NCBI RefSeq assembly: GCF_016793225.1
Contig: NZ_JAEUMN010000026.1
Location: 1 to 35,520 of the forward strand
Direction of reading: 5' to 3'
Length of the DNA stretch: 35,520 nucleotides
Source: Phenylobacterium sp.
GTDB taxonomy: Bacteria; Pseudomonadota; Alphaproteobacteria; Caulobacterales; Caulobacteraceae
How positions within the stretch are numbered: position 1 is the stretch's first letter; every line of letters starts with the position of its first letter. This document shows, piece by piece, positions 24,262 through 32,592 of this stretch. A program made the translations under genes and the position numbers. Under the pieces are notes generated by a model that searched no databases, had not been told where the DNA came from, and saw nothing but the letters and a program-made list of their open reading frames with translations.

Positions 24262-25893
24262 CTAGGCGCTCACGCCGAGGGCCGCCAGCGCCCGTTCCTT
24301 CACGGCCTTGTAGTCAACCTTCCCGTTGGGGGCGCGTCCGATGGACTCGACCACCACAAGCTCGCGCGGCGCCTTGTAGCCCGCAAGCTGCGCGTGCACG
24401 TGGGCCGAGAGTTCGGGCAGGGTCGGCGAGGCGCCGGCCTCGGGCTCGACCACGGCGCAGATCCGCTCGCCGAACCGAGGGTCGGGTACGCCCACGACCA
24501 CCGCGTCGCGCACGGCCGCATGGCGCTTCAGCGCTTCCTCGACCTCTTCGGGGAAGACCTTCTCGCCACCGGTGTTGATGCAGACCGAGCCGCGGCCCAG
24601 CAGCTTCAGCGTCCCGTCTGTGTTCACCTCGGCCCAGTCGCCGGGGACGCTCCAGCGGACGCCTTCCATCACCTTGAACGTCTTGGCGGTCTTCTCTTCG
24701 TCCTTGTAGTAGCCGAGCGGGAGGAAACCCGTGACCGCCACCAGCCCGCGCTCGCCCGAGCCGGGCTCCACGCGGGTTCCGTCCTCGCGGAACACGCCGG
24801 TGTTCGGGCCCAGCATGAACGCCGCCGTCTGGGCCTCCTGACCCGCGGCCGACGCCGAGGCGCCCAGTCCGACGGCCTCGGACGAGCCGAAGCTGTCGGC
24901 GATCATCGCCTGCGGGATGTGCCCCAGCAGCCCGCGCTTGTTCTCGTAGCTCCACATCGAGCCCGACGAGCTCATGGCCCGGACGCTCGAGAGGTCCCAC
25001 TTCCCGGGATTGGCGTCGAGCGCCTCGAGCATCGGCGTGGAGAACGCCAGGCCCACGATCACGATGTTGGTGGCCTTCAGCCGCTCGACCTCGTTCCACA
25101 GCTCGATGGCGTTGAACTTGCGCGAGGGCAGGGTGCACACCGTGCCGCCGGCGTTGAAGGCGATGAAGGCCGAGAACTGGCCGGTGCCGTGCATCAGCGG
25201 CGCGGCGACCATCGACGTGGGCTTCAGGTGTTCGGGCCCCTTGATCCGCGCCACCAGCTCCTCGATCGAGGTCGCCGGCGGGATCCCCAGCGCCGCGTTG
25301 CCGCCCGCGCCCAGGACCTGGAACAGGTCGTCCTGGCGCCACATCACGCCCTTCGGCATCCCGGTGGTTCCGCCGGTGTAGAGCAGCAGCAGGTCGTCGC
25401 CCGACCGTCCCCAGGGCGCCTTCACCGGACGCTGCGCCGGCGCCTTCGCGACGATCGCGTCGTAGTCGTCCGCCCAGGCGGGTACGGCGTGGCCCGGCTC
25501 GGCCACCGCCACCCAGGCCTTCACCTTGGGCAGCTGGGGCCGGATCTTTTCCAGCAGTTCGGTGAAGCCCGCGTGGAACACCACGGCCTCGGCGTCGGCG
25601 TTGTCGAAGAGGTAGCGCACCTCCTCGGGCCCGTAGCGGTAGTTGGTGTTGACGGGCGCGAACCCGCCCTTGAACGCGGCGAAGTAGGTCTCGAGGTACT
25701 CCGGCCCGTTGAACAGGTAGCCCGCCACCTTGCCCTGGCGGCTGAGGCCCTTGGCGATGAAGTGCGCCGCGAGCGCGTCCGCGCGGGCGTCGAACTGGGA
25801 CCAGGTCAGCACCCGGTCCGCCTGGATCTGGGCCGCCTGATCGGGCTGCGACCGCGCGATCGCTTCCCAGATATCCGCAATGGTCCAGCCCAT
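24262..25893 (-). CDS. Fatty acyl-CoA synthetase (AMP-binding family)
   Basis: A 543-residue ANL-superfamily ligase that activates a carboxylic acid with ATP and joins it to CoA. The AMP/P-loop motif YTGGTTGMPKG is at 172-182, with further core motifs in FGSSEAVGLGAS, LLGRGSVCINTGGEKVFPEEVEEAL, and the catalytic Lys525 in PNGKVDYK. The organisation resembles the FadD group of acyl-CoA synthetases, some of which act on steroid side chains or unusual fatty acids; the substrate is not defined. The start ATG 25893 has GGGAGG upstream and a possible TTGACA -35 at 25963-25958 on the same strand. It is divergent from the hydrolase-like gene. Confidence 0.92.
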   Translation of the reverse strand: MGWTIADIWEAIARSQPDQAAQIQADRVLTWSQFDARADALAAHFIAKGLSRQGKVAGYLFNGPEYLETYFAAFKGGFAPVNTNYRYGPEEVRYLFDNADAEAVVFHAGFTELLEKIRPQLPKVKAWVAVAEPGHAVPAWADDYDAIVAKAPAQRPVKAPWGRSGDDLLLLYTGGTTGMPKGVMWRQDDLFQVLGAGGNAALGIPPATSIEELVARIKGPEHLKPTSMVAAPLMHGTGQFSAFIAFNAGGTVCTLPSRKFNAIELWNEVERLKATNIVIVGLAFSTPMLEALDANPGKWDLSSVRAMSSSGSMWSYENKRGLLGHIPQAMIADSFGSSEAVGLGASASAAGQEAQTAAFMLGPNTGVFREDGTRVEPGSGERGLVAVTGFLPLGYYKDEEKTAKTFKVMEGVRWSVPGDWAEVNTDGTLKLLGRGSVCINTGGEKVFPEEVEEALKRHAAVRDAVVVGVPDPRFGERICAVVEPEAGASPTLPELSAHVHAQLAGYKAPRELVVVESIGRAPNGKVDYKAVKERALAALGVSA

Positions 25894-26835: not shown

Positions 26836-27096
26836 ATGGCCACTGGAAAAAACACGAACGCCCTGCAGAAGCCCCTGACGCCCTCCGCCGAACTGGCTGC
26901 CGTCGTGGGCTCGGGCCAGCTTTCGCGCGGGGAAACCGTCTCGAAGATCTGGGACTACATCAAGAAGAACAACCTGCAGAATCCCGCGAACAAGCGCGAG
27001 ATCCTGGCCGACGCCAAGCTGAAGCCGATCTTCGGCGGCAAGGACAAGGTCAGCATGTTCGAGATGAACAAGCACCTGGCGGCCCACCTGAAGTAG
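26836..27096 (+). CDS. SWIB/MDM2-domain protein
   Basis: An 86-residue protein made almost entirely of a SWIB domain (about 15-85): LTPSAELAAVVGSGQLSRGETVSKIWDYIKKNNLQNPANKREI, then LKPIFGGKDKVSMFEMNKHLAAHL. The domain is best known from eukaryotic SWI/SNF chromatin remodelers, from MDM2 and as fusions to chlamydial topoisomerase I; small stand-alone bacterial versions exist without clear function. The N-terminus is basic and may touch DNA. GGGGAG lies 5 bases before ATG 26836. A probable terminator follows at 27145. Confidence 0.92.
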   Translation: MATGKNTNALQKPLTPSAELAAVVGSGQLSRGETVSKIWDYIKKNNLQNPANKREILADAKLKPIFGGKDKVSMFEMNKHLAAHLK

Positions 27097-27231: not shown

Positions 27232-27975
27232 GTGACCGCGCCGAACAGAGCCATCATCCTCGCCGCCGGCCAGGGCAAGCGCCTCCTGCCGCTCACCGAG
27301 GACCGTCCCAAGTGCCTGGTCGAGCTCTCCGGCCGCAGCCTGCTGGCGTGGCAGCTCCTGCGCCTGCAGGCGGCCGGGGTGGCCGAAACGGTGATCGTGA
27401 CGGGCTTCCGCGCCGACGCCGTGGAGGCCGAGATCGCGAAGCTGGGCCTCGCCATGCCCGTCCGGCTGGCGTTCAACCCCTTCTACACCGTCAGCGACAA
27501 CACCGCCTCGTGCTGGATCGTCCGCGAGGAATTCGACCGCGAGATCCTGGTGCTGAACGGGGACACGCTGTTCGGTCCGGGCGTGGCCGAGGCGCTGCTG
27601 GCGGCGCCGCCCGCGGAGATCACGGTCACCATCGACCGCAAGCCCGCCTACGACGCCGACGACATGAAGGTGCTGACCGAGCACGGCCGCCTCGTCGCCA
27701 TCGGCAAGACCATCGAGGCCTATGACGCCGAGAGCATCGGCTTCCTGCGCTTCTCCAAGGCGGGCGCGGCCAAGTTCCGCGCCGGCGTCGAGAGCGTCCT
27801 GGCCCACCCCGAGGGCCTGCGCCGCTGGTACCTGTCGGTCATCGACGAGCTCGCCCGCGCGGGCGTCGACGTGAAGGTCTGCTCCATCGAGGGGCTCGAA
27901 TGGGGGGAAATGGACTTCCCCCAGGACGTCGACAACCTCAACCGCCTCTCCAGCGGCTGGACCGCACCGGCCTAA
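27232..27975 (+). CDS. Sugar- or choline-phosphate nucleotidyltransferase (LicC/HddC-like)
   Basis: A 247-residue cytoplasmic enzyme of the NTP-transferase (GT-A-like) superfamily. The nucleotide-binding signature AIILAAGQGKRLLPLTEDRPKCLVEL (about 7-32) and the metal-binding Asp in LVLNGDTLF are clear. The closest families I recall are LicC-type phosphocholine cytidylyltransferases and sugar-phosphate nucleotidyltransferases, which make CDP- or NDP-activated head groups. The start is GTG 27232. It faces the ceramide-synthase-like operon and ends 27 bases from the other nucleotidyltransferase, so I infer that it activates a polar head group for a lipid; the substrate is unproven. Confidence 0.85.
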   Translation: MTAPNRAIILAAGQGKRLLPLTEDRPKCLVELSGRSLLAWQLLRLQAAGVAETVIVTGFRADAVEAEIAKLGLAMPVRLAFNPFYTVSDNTASCWIVREEFDREILVLNGDTLFGPGVAEALLAAPPAEITVTIDRKPAYDADDMKVLTEHGRLVAIGKTIEAYDAESIGFLRFSKAGAAKFRAGVESVLAHPEGLRRWYLSVIDELARAGVDVKVCSIEGLEWGEMDFPQDVDNLNRLSSGWTAPA

Positions 27976-28002
27976 GGATCGGACACGCGCGGCGAGGGGC
28001 CG

Positions 28003-28758
28003 CTACGCGTCGCCGACGATCTTCCGCACCAGGTCCAGGTCCGCGGGCTTGTCCACGTCCACCGAAGCCAGGCCGTAGGGCGTCTCCACGATCGCCGCGG
28101 TGACGCCGGCAAGACGGCCAAGCCGTTCGGCCGCGGCCTTCAGCGTCAGCCAGCCCAGCGCATAGCTCGCCAGCATCCCGACGCCCAGGATGCCGGCCAT
28201 GCGCCACGGGCGCTTCCGCTCGGCCTCCACCCGCCGCCAGAGGTCGACCACGGCCAGCGCGCGCGCGTTGGCCAGGTAGAACAGGTTGCAGCCGCTCCAG
28301 TGCCCGTCGGCAAGCTTCAGCCAGGTGCGCCGGGTGTCTGGGGCCGCCCGTTCCACGGTGGCGCGCGCGGCCACGAGGGCGGCGACGTCGGCGTCGCTCG
28401 GCGTGTCGTCCAGGAACCGGCGGATCCATTCGCCGTCCAGCAGCGCGTGATCCGCCGTCGTCACCAACAGCGGGGTCCCCAGGTGCGCGCCCGCCGCCTT
28501 GACGCTCAGGCTGGGTCCGGCCTGCTCGTCCAGGACCTCCAGGCCCAGGACTTCGGCCTCGCGCCGCACATCCGGGTGGCTGGAGACGACGGCGATCCGG
28601 CCCGCGCCTGCGTCGCGCAGCGCCACGGCCACCCGCGCCAGCAGCGTGCGGCCCTGCAGCCGGATCAGCGCCTTGTGCGTCGCCTCCCCATAGGCCGCGA
28701 CCGCATCGACCGCGCCGGGCCGCGAGCCGGCCAGCACCAGCGCGGCGAACCCGCTCAA
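28003..28758 (-). CDS. MobA-like NTP transferase domain protein
   Basis: A 251-residue protein of the NTP_transf_3 (MobA-like) family. The N-terminal FAALVLAGSRPGAVD replaces the stricter LAGG-x-SRRMG signature, and Lys near THKALIRLQGRTLL, the Asp in LLVTTADHALL and the late VDVDKPADLDLVRK (the typical D-x-D end of these proteins) are visible. A hydrophobic stretch (about 175-195, MAGILGVGMLASYALGWLTL) may attach it to the membrane. The start TTG 28758 overlaps the stop of the GNAT gene (TTGA), so translation is coupled. It is the last gene of the operon and probably transfers a nucleotide to a lipid head-group precursor. Confidence 0.75.
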   Translation of the reverse strand: MSGFAALVLAGSRPGAVDAVAAYGEATHKALIRLQGRTLLARVAVALRDAGAGRIAVVSSHPDVRREAEVLGLEVLDEQAGPSLSVKAAGAHLGTPLLVTTADHALLDGEWIRRFLDDTPSDADVAALVAARATVERAAPDTRRTWLKLADGHWSGCNLFYLANARALAVVDLWRRVEAERKRPWRMAGILGVGMLASYALGWLTLKAAAERLGRLAGVTAAIVETPYGLASVDVDKPADLDLVRKIVGDA

Positions 28759-29888
28759 GCGAGCGCCTTCTGGTACAGCCGATAGGTCTTGTAGACCTTC
28801 GCGCCGCCCACGTCGCAGATGCGGCGCATGGCGGCGTTGTCCTCCAGGATCCACGAGAGTTCGTAGCGCTCGTAGCCCAGCTTGCGCGCCTGCTGGGCCA
28901 CGGCGTCGATCAGCTGGAAGGGCAGGAGCTGGCCGCGCAGGCTGGCGGCGAACTTGCGCTTCACCCCCATCAGGGGCACGCGGCCGGTCTTCACGCCCTT
29001 CACCTTCAGCCGCCACAACAGCTTGGCCCAGCCAAACGGGAACAGCCGGCCCTTCAGGTCGGCGATCGCCTCGTTGATGTTGGGCAGCAGCACCATGAAG
29101 CCCGCCGGCTCGCCGTCGATGTCGGCGAACCAGGTGAGCCGGGGGTCGATCACCAGCTTCAGGGTCGTCGCCAGCGCCTGCGTCTCGGCCTCGGTGGTGG
29201 GCGTGAAGCCCCAGTTTTCGCTCCAGGCGTCGTTCAGGATGCTCGTGAGGGTGCGGACCTCGGCGTCGAAACGCTTCATGTCCAGCATCCGCAGGGTGAC
29301 GCCCTCGGCCGGACCCTTGCGCACCCGCCGCAGGATCGGCGCGGGCAGGTCGTCGGCCACGCTGCAGACATAGGCGAAGATGTCCTTGGCCTTGGCGTAG
29401 CCCGCGCCCTCGATACGGCCGGGCGTGTGCGGCGCGTCGTGGCCCATCATGAACATCGGGGGCGCCTCGTGGCCCTCGACCAGCAGGCCCACCTCCTCGT
29501 TGGTGGAGAGGTTCACCGGCCCGACGGCCGTGCGGCAGCCCCGCGCCTTCAGCCAGGCCTCGGCCGTGGCGAACAGGGCGGCGAAGACCTCGGCGTCGTC
29601 CTCGGCCGCGACCATGCCGAAGTGGCCGACGCCGTCCTTCGTCGTGGGGTTCAGGTGGTCGATCTGGGCGCTGATCCGGCCCACGTCGCGGCCGTCCCGC
29701 ACCGCCAGCCAGAACTGCACGTCGGCGTGCTCGAAGAACGGGTTGCCCTTGGCCGAGAGCGATTCCCGGCGTTCGAACATCAGGGGGGCGATGTAGTTCG
29801 GATCGCCCGCGCCCAGCCGCATCGGCACGCGGATGAACCGCTCAAGGTCGGCGGCGGTTTCGACCGGCTGGATCTGGACGCCCCCCAA
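28755..29888 (-). CDS. GNAT-fold acyltransferase, probable bacterial ceramide synthase (bCerS-like)
   Basis: A 377-residue protein with GNAT-like features: an N-terminal FIRVPMRLGAGDPNYIAPLMFERRESL, the VGRISAQIDHLN strand, and a C-terminal second acyltransferase half with FADIDGEPAGFMVLLPNINEAI and ELSWILEDNAAMRRICDVGGAKVYKTYRLYQK. Proteins of this type are often labelled dATP pyrophosphohydrolase without support. In Caulobacter crescentus, the bacterial ceramide synthase that N-acylates the sphingoid base is, as I recall it, a GNAT-superfamily protein of about this size next to Lpt-like genes. The same neighbours occur here, so I call this a probable ceramide synthase. The start is TTG 29888, 4 bases after the LptG-like stop. 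Confidence 0.75.
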   Translation of the reverse strand: MGGVQIQPVETAADLERFIRVPMRLGAGDPNYIAPLMFERRESLSAKGNPFFEHADVQFWLAVRDGRDVGRISAQIDHLNPTTKDGVGHFGMVAAEDDAEVFAALFATAEAWLKARGCRTAVGPVNLSTNEEVGLLVEGHEAPPMFMMGHDAPHTPGRIEGAGYAKAKDIFAYVCSVADDLPAPILRRVRKGPAEGVTLRMLDMKRFDAEVRTLTSILNDAWSENWGFTPTTEAETQALATTLKLVIDPRLTWFADIDGEPAGFMVLLPNINEAIADLKGRLFPFGWAKLLWRLKVKGVKTGRVPLMGVKRKFAASLRGQLLPFQLIDAVAQQARKLGYERYELSWILEDNAAMRRICDVGGAKVYKTYRLYQKALA

Positions 29889-29892
29889 GGCG

Positions 29893-30951
29893 CTAGCCCT
29901 CGCGATAGATCAGCATGGTCAATCCGAACGCGGCGAACATGGCGGGCGCCGCCCAGGCCGCCAGCAGGGGCGGCGCGGCGCCGTTCTCGCCCAGCGCCGT
30001 GAAGGCGCCGTCGAACACGAGGAACAGCAGGCCCGACGCCAAGCACTGGACGATCAGGGTGGCGCCGCCGCCGCGGAAGTTCGCCAGCGCCGCGGGCGCG
30101 GCCAGCAGCAGCATCACCAGGCACGCGGCAGGCGCCGCCCAGGCCCGCTGCAGCTGGGTGTCGTAGAACGTCCGTGGCCGAACCGAGAGGCCGCCGGCGA
30201 GCGCCCGGCTGGCCTCCGCCGGGGTCACCGACGTCTGCCCCATGGCCAGCGTCCGCACGTCCCCCGGCTTCAGGGTATCCGACCAGTCCATGGACCGCGC
30301 CGCGCCCTCGGCGATGCTGGCCGCGCCCAGGGTTTCGAACCGCGGCTCCACCAGCCGCCAGCGCTCGTTCTCGTAGACCGCCGCCCGCGCCGTGGTCCGC
30401 TGCACCAGCCGTCCGGTCTGGTCGCGCCGGTAGATGGTCACCTTCTCCAGGCTCCGTCCGTCCGGATCTCGGGGCACCGCGACGACGATCTCGTCGCCAA
30501 GCCGGAAGGTGAGGGGATCCACCACCTTGTCCGGATCCGCCGGCGTCGAGCTCTGCCACCACGTCGAAAGCTGCGCGTCGGTGCGCGGGGCGATGACCAT
30601 GCCGATCGCGAGCTGCGCCACGGCCAGGGCCAGGGCGGCCGGCGCGGCGATCATCGTGACGCGGTAGGCCGATATCCCCGTCGAGCGCATGGCGGTCACG
30701 GCGCTCTCGCCGGCCAGCTTGCCGAAGGCGAACAGCGAGCCCGCCAGCACCGAAAGCGGCGCCGCCTGCTCGATCAGGCGCGGCAGCCGCAGCATCGCGT
30801 AGTAGGCCACGCCCTCGGCGCCCAGCTTGCGGTCGAGGATCTCGGTGGTCACGTCCAGCAGGTCGAGGATCTGCAGGATCCCGACCATGATCGCCAGGGC
30901 CGCGAGGATCCGCGATCCCATCAGGCGCAGCAGGTAGCTCGAGAGCGTCAT
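29893..30951 (-). CDS. LptG-family permease
   Basis: A 352-residue LptF/LptG (YjgP/YjgQ) inner-membrane subunit. These pair with the ABC protein LptB to pull lipopolysaccharide out of the membrane toward the Lpt bridge. Membrane segments are predicted at about 12-35, 60-80, 100-122, 270-290, 300-315 and 325-348, with the periplasmic beta-jellyroll domain between segments 3 and 4. The ATG 30951 overlaps the LptF stop (ATGA), the usual lptF-lptG arrangement. No lptB, lptC or lptA is next to it. Because the next gene is the ceramide-synthase-like one, this pair may carry sphingolipid instead of, or as well as, LPS. Confidence 0.88.
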   Translation of the reverse strand: MTLSSYLLRLMGSRILAALAIMVGILQILDLLDVTTEILDRKLGAEGVAYYAMLRLPRLIEQAAPLSVLAGSLFAFGKLAGESAVTAMRSTGISAYRVTMIAAPAALALAVAQLAIGMVIAPRTDAQLSTWWQSSTPADPDKVVDPLTFRLGDEIVVAVPRDPDGRSLEKVTIYRRDQTGRLVQRTTARAAVYENERWRLVEPRFETLGAASIAEGAARSMDWSDTLKPGDVRTLAMGQTSVTPAEASRALAGGLSVRPRTFYDTQLQRAWAAPAACLVMLLLAAPAALANFRGGGATLIVQCLASGLLFLVFDGAFTALGENGAAPPLLAAWAAPAMFAAFGLTMLIYREG

Positions 30952-32135
30952 GCCGGCTGCGCCTGGCCCGCGCGCCGCAGCTTGAAGCGCGCGACCTGGG
31001 TGGCGATCAGCTCCATCACCCGGCCGATCGGGGTCTCCCCGGGCCGCTTGCGGCTGCTGACGAAGACCACGATCGCGATGCTCGCGAAGACCACGAAGGG
31101 CAGGCCCACGGCGAGCGCCGGGTTCGCCCGTCCCGTGTCGGCCAGGCCCTCGCCCAGCTGGACGGCGTGGTAGAACGCCAGCAGCAGGAGGCCGCCCACG
31201 ATCACGCCCGGCGCGCGGCCGCTGCGTTTGGCGGCCAGCCCGAGCGGCACCGCCAGCAGCGGCAGCAGCGGCAACACCAGCGCGCGCGCCAGCCGCCCGT
31301 AGAGCTCGCCCAGCAGGGTGTCGCGCGGGATCGACGTGCGCCCGCTTTCGGCCTGGTCGGCCAGCTCGAAGAGGGTCAGCTCCCGCTCGTCGCCGCCCCG
31401 CGAGCGCAGCAGCCGGGCCGGCCCCTGCACCGGCAGCTGCATCGTGAAGTCCTCGAAGCTGAGGAGCTCGGGGTGACCCTGGCGGTCATAGCGAAGCTGC
31501 TGCCCGTTCTTGAGCATCAGCTGCACGTTGCGGCCGTCGGCCGTGCGGCGGACCTCGGCCATGCCGGCGGTGGTGATCTCCTCGCGGCCGTTCTCGGTGA
31601 TCCGGCGGATGAAGACCCGGCTGAGCTGCTGGCCGGCCGCATCGGCGGCGTCGGTCGTCATCGTCAGGTCCTTGGACGGGATCAGGATCGTCTCGGCGGG
31701 GACCAGCCCGTTCCAGCCGGCGTTCTGGGCGGTGTGCAGCACGGCGCGATAGGCGTAGCGGCTGTAGGGCTGCAGGAAGCCGAACACCACCAGGCTCACC
31801 GCCGCCAGCCCCGCGGCCAGGCAGAGGTAGGGCGCCGCCAGCCGCGTCAGCGACACGCCGGCGGCCAGGAGGGCGTCCACCTCGGAGGACTGGTTCATCC
31901 GGTTGACGACGATGATCAGCGCCAGGAAGAACGCCGCCGGCAGGGTCAGGCCCACGTAGTGCGGCACCAGGTTCACCGCGAGCTGCGCCACGAAGCCGAA
32001 CCGGTCGCTGGACGCCGCCAGCAGGTCGAGCAGCCGCAGCGTGCGCTCCAGGAGCAGCGCGATCAGGGTGACCCCGGTCGCCCCGACCATCGGCCAGAAG
32101 GCCAGCCGGAGCAGGTAGCGGTCGATGCGGCTCAA
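30948..32135 (-). CDS. LptF-family permease
   Basis: A 395-residue partner of the LptG-like protein, with the same six-segment plan: helices at about 12-30, 55-77, 97-121, then a periplasmic domain (about 140-285), and three C-terminal helices at about 290-372. Family segments LLERTLRLLDLLAASS and VNRMNQSSEVDALLAAGVSLTRLAAPYL are clear. The start is TTG 32135 with GGGGGA upstream; it gives the family-like MSRIDRYLLRLAF. It follows the HIT gene by 22 bases, so the HIT-lptF-lptG-GNAT-NTase genes form one operon. Confidence 0.88.
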   Translation of the reverse strand: MSRIDRYLLRLAFWPMVGATGVTLIALLLERTLRLLDLLAASSDRFGFVAQLAVNLVPHYVGLTLPAAFFLALIIVVNRMNQSSEVDALLAAGVSLTRLAAPYLCLAAGLAAVSLVVFGFLQPYSRYAYRAVLHTAQNAGWNGLVPAETILIPSKDLTMTTDAADAAGQQLSRVFIRRITENGREEITTAGMAEVRRTADGRNVQLMLKNGQQLRYDRQGHPELLSFEDFTMQLPVQGPARLLRSRGGDERELTLFELADQAESGRTSIPRDTLLGELYGRLARALVLPLLPLLAVPLGLAAKRSGRAPGVIVGGLLLLAFYHAVQLGEGLADTGRANPALAVGLPFVVFASIAIVVFVSSRKRPGETPIGRVMELIATQVARFKLRRAGQAQPA

Positions 32136-32157
32136 TCGGTCCCCCGGGGTGCGGCGG

Positions 32158-32592
32158 TCATGCCCGCCAGAGGGCGGCGAACTCGGCGGCCAGCGCGCCG
32201 GCCTCCTCCTCGCTCAGCGCGACGTGCGACGCAAGCGCCGGCGGACCCGGCCAGCCCGCATCCCGGAACACATGGCCGCCATGGCTGCGCTCGCCGTCGT
32301 AGCGCGGCAGCACGTGGAAGTGGACGTCGGGATCGACCATCATCAGCATCAGGTAGTTGATGCGCTCGTAGGCCACAGTATGGCGAAGCAGCGCCTCGAC
32401 GCCGTCCACGGCGGTCTTGAGATCGGCGAAGGCCTCGGCCGAGAGATCCGAGAAGGCCGTCGCCTCCTCCTTGCAGACCACCACCAGCGATCCGTACGTC
32501 GGCTGCTGCGGCCGCACGAGCACCAGCCACTTCGCGGTCTCCGCGACCAGGGTGTTCGGGTGCCCGAACTTGCGGGCGGTGGCGTTGCTCAC
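32158..32592 (-). CDS. HIT-family protein
   Basis: A 144-residue histidine-triad protein. The core LVLVRPQQPTYGSLVVVCKEEATAFSDLS (about 27-55) and the active-site segment DPDVHFHVLPRY (about 97-108) are present. HIT proteins hydrolyse nucleotide phosphoramidates, dinucleoside polyphosphates or similar. The usual triad H-x-H-x-H is D-x-H-x-H here; the second His, the nucleophile in HINT and FHIT, is kept, so activity is possible. I chose GTG 32592 with AGGGAC upstream; the frame is open to 32757 but without similarity. It is the first gene of the Lpt-ceramide operon, 83 bases after the TetR gene ends. Confidence 0.85.
   Translation of the reverse strand: MSNATARKFGHPNTLVAETAKWLVLVRPQQPTYGSLVVVCKEEATAFSDLSAEAFADLKTAVDGVEALLRHTVAYERINYLMLMMVDPDVHFHVLPRYDGERSHGGHVFRDAGWPGPPALASHVALSEEEAGALAAEFAALWRA

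Follow-up and report, generated by a model that had tools for sequence, protein, structure and literature searches.

A predicted ceramide phosphoglycerate locus in Phenylobacterium with a sphingolipid-linked LptF/LptG pair and a HIT-family gene

What does a tightly packed gene block contribute to the cell when it joins a ceramide-synthase-like gene to an LptF/LptG permease pair, a HIT-family gene and two nucleotidyltransferase genes, and which lipids would such a permease carry? The block in question spans positions 27,232-32,592 of a 35,520 bp stretch of DNA (the window), which is one whole contig, C4, of a Phenylobacterium draft assembly (4.6 Mb in 197 contigs, 97.5% complete). Five of its six genes are on the minus strand, and a LicC-like nucleotidyltransferase gene faces them on the plus strand. 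A preliminary description, made from the letters of the DNA, had read the block as a locus for sphingolipid synthesis and export; this is supported here, as the checks of the GNAT protein, the LptF/LptG pair and the pathway genes agree. Judged from sequence, the stretch is very probably the Phenylobacterium version of the Caulobacter ceramide phosphoglycerate locus, which would make an acidic sphingolipid and probably export it.

The sphingolipid region of Caulobacter crescentus comprises CC_1168 to CC_1152. In the available text of PMC11324152, CC_1152 and CC_1153 are nucleotidyltransferases, CC_1154 is CerS, CC_1155 and CC_1156 are counted among second versions of LptF and LptG, CC_1157 is labelled 'probably unrelated', CC_1158 is a phosphoesterase, CC_1159-CC_1161 are head-group genes, CC_1162-CC_1165 are spt, acpR, cerR and aasR, and CC_1168 is LptC2; AcpR and AasR serve Spt. 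CC_1152 has been identified as CpgD, the maker of CDP-glycerate (PMC12275187, PMC13228409). As far as the published text at hand goes, dihydroceramide formation in C. crescentus needs cerS, spt, cerR, acpR and aasR, the sequence of the bCerS and CerR steps is unsettled in print, and the activities of CpgB and CpgD have been described, as have the lipid phenotypes. Outward transport of phosphosphingolipids by the second Lpt proteins and a flippase is put forward as a proposal only in PMC11324152, a paper of 2024 which calls the route of bacterial sphingolipids to the outer membrane unknown. For C. crescentus the core of the locus and the idea of export have been published before, and the window is a further instance; what is added here is a clade test of LptF/LptG, a hint of a wider cargo and the co-occurrence of the HIT gene with head-group genes. 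In the open-licence PMC literature (subscription journals are mostly outside it) the matches listed hold nothing on LptF2/LptG2 transport beyond PMC11324152, and no link of ceramide phosphoglycerate or of Caulobacter sphingolipids to a HIT-family protein was found there.

Gene content of the block and the rest of the pathway

The open reading frame coordinates and a check of the start codons bear out the six genes, their strands and their spacing as first described, and Pfam agrees with all six gene names. From HIT through LptF, LptG and GNAT to the MobA-like gene the gaps on the minus strand are 22, -4, 4 and -4 bp, and 27 bp separate the end of the facing nucleotidyltransferase gene from the MobA-like stop codon. 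Because three of the genes start with TTG, the exact N-termini are unsure. The defining set of the locus, cerS beside lptF2, lptG2, a CC_1153-type gene and cpgD, is present in the window.

The GNAT gene (28755..29888, minus strand, TTG start; Pfam GNAT, E 4e-6) encodes a predicted bacterial ceramide synthase (bCerS, CC_1154 type), orthologue of Caulobacter CerS. Its product is 61-67% identical to proteins of ten Caulobacter-titled loci, relatives which stood in for the C. crescentus CerS sequence itself in this comparison, and eight of the ten carry spt in the stretch examined, the remaining two being cut short; the proposed likeness to a ceramide synthase is thus borne out. Nine of the ten closest relatives of the gene are titled Phenylobacterium and one 'uncultured Alphaproteobacteria bacterium'. 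No PDB entry was accepted as a solved structure related to bCerS: the top match, with E 0.015 across 42 residues, is to an unrelated protein.

The facing gene (27232..27975, plus strand, GTG start; Pfam NTP_transferase, E 8e-14) had been suggested as an enzyme which could activate head groups, and its orthologue has been characterised in C. crescentus as CpgD. The window protein is 59-65% identical to the copies in seven Caulobacter-titled loci. PMC13228409, in its available text, reports the CpgD residues which contact CTP, magnesium waters or glycerate; mapped via relatives and not via the C. crescentus sequence, R17, N90, N109, G110, S168 and W199 (window numbers) are conserved in the alignment. 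Compared with C. crescentus CpgD (PMC12275187, PMC13228409) the CTP and glycerate contacts are kept, whereas T88 (backbone contact) and T93 (side-chain hydroxyl) are S88 and S93 in the window protein, with serine also in C. endophyticus. By identity and contact residues the gene is a predicted orthologue of cpgD and would encode a CTP:phosphoglycerate cytidylyltransferase of the CC_1152 / CCNA_01210 type. The product of the MobA-like gene (28003..28758, minus strand, TTG start; Pfam NTP_transf_3, E 2e-16) has a weak CofC match below the cut-off and is a putative CofC/MobA-like nucleotidyltransferase, orthologue of CC_1153.

Gene order was compared in 90 loci with a bCerS relative (10 + 80), the best of at least 560 confirmed candidates; many of these stretches end at contig ends, and all counts refer to the stretch examined. 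In 62 of the 90 loci LptG precedes bCerS on the same strand by no more than 4 kb, a MobA-like gene follows on that strand in 52, and HIT lies upstream in 42. CpgD proteins more than 50% identical were found in 40 loci and spt in 60. HIT, LptG, bCerS and the MobA-like gene share one strand and the gene order of the window in 41/90 loci, therefore the arrangement of the window is not due to chance.

The genes which the preliminary description had not seen, namely spt, cerR, the acyl carrier gene acpR and LptB/C/A, are found on other contigs of the same assembly. Contig C14 carries aasR, cerR, acpR and spt (the latter 95% identical to spt of P. kunshanense), plus a Polysacc_synt flippase-like gene. 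Contig C24 (7.4 kb) carries cpgA (CDP-OH_P_transf), cpgB (DAGK_cat) and a cpgC relative without Pfam match, together with an incomplete phosphoesterase gene and another acpR-spt copy, so that C14 and C24 supply the full set aasR, cerR, acpR, spt, cpgA, cpgB and cpgC. On C171, LptC is followed by an LptA-family protein and an ATP-binding cassette (ABC) ATPase, which beside these two is taken as LptB. In P. kunshanense (L034) the relatives of the C14 and C24 genes stand in one run with the block from HIT to CpgD. It counts against our reconstruction that cpgA, cpgB and cpgC rest on C24 only. The two acpR-spt copies, L116:119-1587 (G000:C14) and L117:5657-7125 (G000:C24), are 86% identical in DNA over 1,779 bp, and because of this second copy mis-binning of the contig with cpgABC is possible; the doubled acpR-spt may be a true duplication or the sign of a mis-binned contig.

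From these genes the following pathway can be proposed. AasR would load an acyl chain onto AcpR, and Spt would condense this chain with serine. The product would be N-acylated by bCerS and reduced by CerR to ceramide, from which CpgB and CpgC would lead to ceramide phosphoglycerate (CPG), while CpgD would make CDP-glycerate. We infer that CpgA, a CDP-alcohol phosphotransferase, probably adds a second phosphoglycerate from CDP-glycerate, giving ceramide diphosphoglycerate (CPG2), and that the HIT protein probably serves this step, with a cytidine nucleotide (for instance CDP-glycerate) as its substrate.

Some neighbouring genes were looked at as well. An acyl-CoA ligase gene of the window (24262-25893) was considered as AasR and rejected, because its product matches NCBIfam PRK07798 and an aasR relative stands beside spt on C14. 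Upstream of HIT the window has a TetR gene where the C. crescentus locus has the phosphoesterase. An 86-residue protein (26836-27096) resembles the C-terminal part of a DNA topoisomerase/SWI-domain fusion; it is found near the block in four compared stretches of the same genus with 93-100% identity, cut in one. Outside the Proteobacteria by label, a Geothrix metagenome-assembled genome (MAG; L064, labelled Acidobacteriota) holds a bCerS relative 57% identical; aasR and cerR lie no more than about 2 kb from it and acpR and spt at a distance of about 11 kb, an occurrence which points to transfer or mis-binning.

The HIT protein and its proposed part in adding the second phosphoglycerate

HIT enzymes commonly cleave nucleoside phosphates, which leads to the guess that the HIT protein of the block (32158..32592, minus strand, GTG start; Pfam HIT, E 7e-5) acts on CDP-glycerate. 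Its domain match is over Pfam's cut-off, its predicted structure model has a predicted local distance difference test (pLDDT) value of 92.5, and at the site of the H-x-H-x-H triad it reads D-x-H-x-H. The motif D-V-H-F-H-V-x-P-R is common to 13 aligned HIT proteins, with D89-V-H91-F-H93 invariant. The gene is probably the counterpart of CC_1157; this assignment is based on its position and on the loss of CC_1157 in Zymomonas along with CC_1159, as reported in the available text of PMC11324152. A DUF2141 gene also occurs in the same gap in Caulobacter loci.

The presence of HIT, cpgA and cpgD was scored in 70 whole genomes that have bCerS or spt, comprising the 11 spt-bearing genomes of the order and those of 59 of the 80 loci; the other 21 loci were left out, as those without a whole LptG beside bCerS had been dropped. 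HIT and cpgA agree in 67 of the 70 genomes (both in 43, neither in 24, HIT alone in G001 and G057, cpgA alone in G085). HIT and cpgD agree in 68 (both in 44, neither in 24, HIT alone in G001, cpgD alone in G085), where cpgD presence means an E value below 1e-30 and weaker matches in G020, G035, G055 and G074 were scored absent. One of the exceptions, the MAG G057 (2.5 Mb), has a fragment of CpgD, and another, G001, has a decaying cluster in which cpgB is split, LptG is cut to its first 41 residues and bCerS has no match. Decaying clusters of this kind, L188 (G001:C62) and L189 (G017:C103), have complete or almost complete matches to spt, acpR, cerR, HIT and LptF.

On a bCerS tree of 68 of these genomes (G001 and G011 are left out, bCerS being missing or split) HIT changes nine times. 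We simulated HIT on this tree at a frequency kept close to that observed; in 22,491 kept draws the agreement reached at most 62 with cpgA and 63 with cpgD, as compared to the observed 66/68 and 67/68. The corresponding agreement is 62/68 for the MobA-like gene (p 0.0001), 52/67 for the phosphoesterase (p 0.006), 50/68 for LptF (p 0.02), 41/67 for cpgB (p 0.25) and 37/67 for spt (p 0.64), but these five genes were scored on stretches with contig ends, therefore the comparison favours cpgA and cpgD. A simple tie of HIT to the MobA-like gene was not adopted: although their overall agreement is high, the MobA-like gene is kept in G009, in C. vibrioides OR37, in L042 and in both Acidisoma, and none of these genomes has a HIT, cpgA or cpgD match. 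A clear loss of cpgB in Burkholderiales was likewise not adopted, as L094 and L096 have weak CpgB-like matches.

The alternative view, taken in PMC11324152 for CC_1157, that the HIT protein is a passenger with no relation to the pathway has to be taken seriously, even if the balance tips against it. According to the available text of that paper, mutants of CC_1157 do not show high cofitness with the cluster, which also speaks against our proposal. The strict pair test on the bCerS tree finds only four pairs on well-supported branches, nearly all of them agreeing, and with this number cannot reach p 0.05. Moreover, the genes are in one cluster at most loci, so that common inheritance explains part of the agreement. 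On the other side, the simulated maximum for cpgA stays below the observed value, and the most telling evidence comes from lineages which lost parts separately. L042 (a 3.0 Mb MAG) and C. vibrioides OR37 have lost cpgA, and of HIT they have either nothing or a motif-less remnant (L051:7421-7681 in OR37), whereas the phosphoesterase gene between the two is kept; neither genome has a cpgD match. In Roseospira, HIT follows cpgD on the same strand. C. vibrioides OR37 keeps CpgB, CpgC, bCerS, LptF2/LptG2 and the MobA-like gene and is predicted to make CPG without CPG2, which makes it a natural test of the link between HIT and CPG2. The later steps of this pathway are still under study, and the link brings in HIT as a further candidate.

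A second CpgA-like CDP-alcohol phosphotransferase was seen in seven genomes, Burkholderiales by locus title (G037:C3:61613-62437, G068, G070, G075, G077, G078 and G079); where it could be placed (G037, G068, G070) it lies just upstream of bCerS and perhaps serves a variant head-group step.

The LptF2/LptG2 pair and its probable cargo

LptF2 (30948..32135, minus strand, TTG start) and LptG2 (29893..30951, minus strand, ATG start) match Pfam LptF_LptG with E values of 1e-70 and 5e-62. Both fall below NCBI's cut-off for the LptF and LptG of lipopolysaccharide (LPS) export, a score taken without the genome's second pair, on C51, as a control. In unrooted trees of 32 LptF and 32 LptG proteins, with several long branches and with rows picked by hand (the pairs of G002, G009, G011, G012, G017 and G025, among others, are not included), the ten sampled bCerS-adjoining proteins, the window's among them, form one clade each, with support of 99/96 for LptF and 98/93 for LptG. 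These come from Phenylobacterium, Caulobacter, G004, G028, Hydrocarboniphaga and Variovorax and represent alpha-, beta- and gammaproteobacteria. The C51 pair stands apart and groups with the pairs of relatives without spt. The suggestion that the window pair is sphingolipid-linked thus holds, since it is one of two pairs in the genome and clusters with bCerS-adjoining pairs and not with C51.

The number of LptF/LptG genes follows spt. Among 30 genomes of the order, the window's included, more than two such genes are found in 10 of 11 genomes with spt and in 1 of 19 without (Fisher p 4e-6), or in 2 of 19 if three fragments of G006 are counted (p 2e-5), values which are only a guide because these genomes are related. 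In G025 neither pair adjoins bCerS. Taken together, the trees and counts suggest that LptF2/LptG2 is a separate sphingolipid-linked permease pair and probably the exporter of ceramide-based lipids. As a second permease it would extract these lipids from the inner membrane, and we infer that it shares the cell's LptB, LptC and LptA, which would pass them to the outer membrane.

Several observations do not fit easily with such an exporter. The genome has a single LptC (Pfam LptC, E <=0.001), in the LptC-LptA-LptB run on C171, and by the same threshold no counterpart of LptC2 (CC_1168) was found in this 97.5% complete draft, so that the exporter would be mixed or incomplete. There is a single LptF/LptG pair in G020, which has spt and bCerS, and in Rhodanobacter (G038), which has a bCerS relative. 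The pair of G021 is the next branch to the bCerS-linked clade (support 100/95 and 97/94), and this genome has no spt match (E 1e-100) or bCerS match (E 1e-10). A Nitrospirillum pair (L072 / G035:C8:227230-229414), about 6 kb from bCerS and not adjoining it, falls outside the clade. The G021 pair is located at L192:8633-10938 (G021:C5). In Caulobacter sp. Root343 an LptC2 candidate (L194:7476-8192; Pfam LptC, E 2e-20) lies upstream of aasR.

What, then, would the pair carry? That it is dedicated to CPG2 only is unlikely. Such a role would suit the window, in which HIT, the pair and the MobA-like gene belong to a single run, and the cofitness of 0.60 between CC_1156 and CC_1159 reported in the available text of PMC11324152. 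However, LptG adjoins bCerS in eight loci which have no cpgA, cpgB, cpgC, MobA-like gene or cpgD in the stretch examined. The genomes of these eight have no cpgA match and only one weak cpgD match, in G055 (cpgB and cpgC were searched in the stretches and not genome-wide). Robiginitomaculum and Acidisoma likewise retain LptF and LptG, and their genomes gave no match to cpgA, HIT or cpgD. Because LptG stands beside bCerS without head-group genes nearby, the cargo is probably wider than CPG2, and LptF2/LptG2 probably serves ceramide-based lipids in general.

It is very improbable that the pair is an LPS-exporting duplicate which lies beside bCerS by accident: both proteins are clear LptF/LptG family members and with one LptC in the genome both pairs would have to share it, but the window pair is in a clade with the sampled bCerS-adjoining pairs of three proteobacterial classes, the number of pairs tracks spt, the other pair groups with those of spt-less relatives and LptG is upstream of bCerS on the same strand in 62/90 loci, so that an LPS role was rejected on the tree and the gene counts.

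Combining both lines, we tentatively propose, with chances which we put only slightly below even, that the HIT protein is an unrecognised part of CPG2 synthesis acting on CDP-glycerate or on the nucleotide released by CpgA, the second phosphoglycerate being added only where CpgD, CpgA and HIT are together, and that LptF2/LptG2 exports ceramide-based lipids in general, whether or not they bear the CPG2 head group. The LptF2/LptG2 clade and its tracking with spt make the route of sphingolipids to the outer membrane a testable question.

Comparison with known systems

In comparison to the LPS permeases LptF and LptG, the window pair belongs to the same family and also has F before G, whereas it falls in a separate clade and its LptF shares 29% identity with the genome's other LptF. 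The HIT protein has the HIT domain and the second and third histidine of the triad in common with FHIT and with 2OIK, the nearest solved HIT protein by sequence, which reads H-V-H-W-H at this site; the first histidine is replaced by aspartate in all 13 aligned HIT proteins of these loci. In contrast to C. crescentus, the block from HIT to CpgD is separated in this assembly from spt and cpgABC, which are on other contigs, and a counterpart of LptC2 (CC_1168) was not found in the Phenylobacterium genome. Nevertheless, compared with CC_1152-CC_1168 of C. crescentus the window block has the same kinds of genes in the same order, an order which is also found in P. kunshanense and in the Caulobacter loci.

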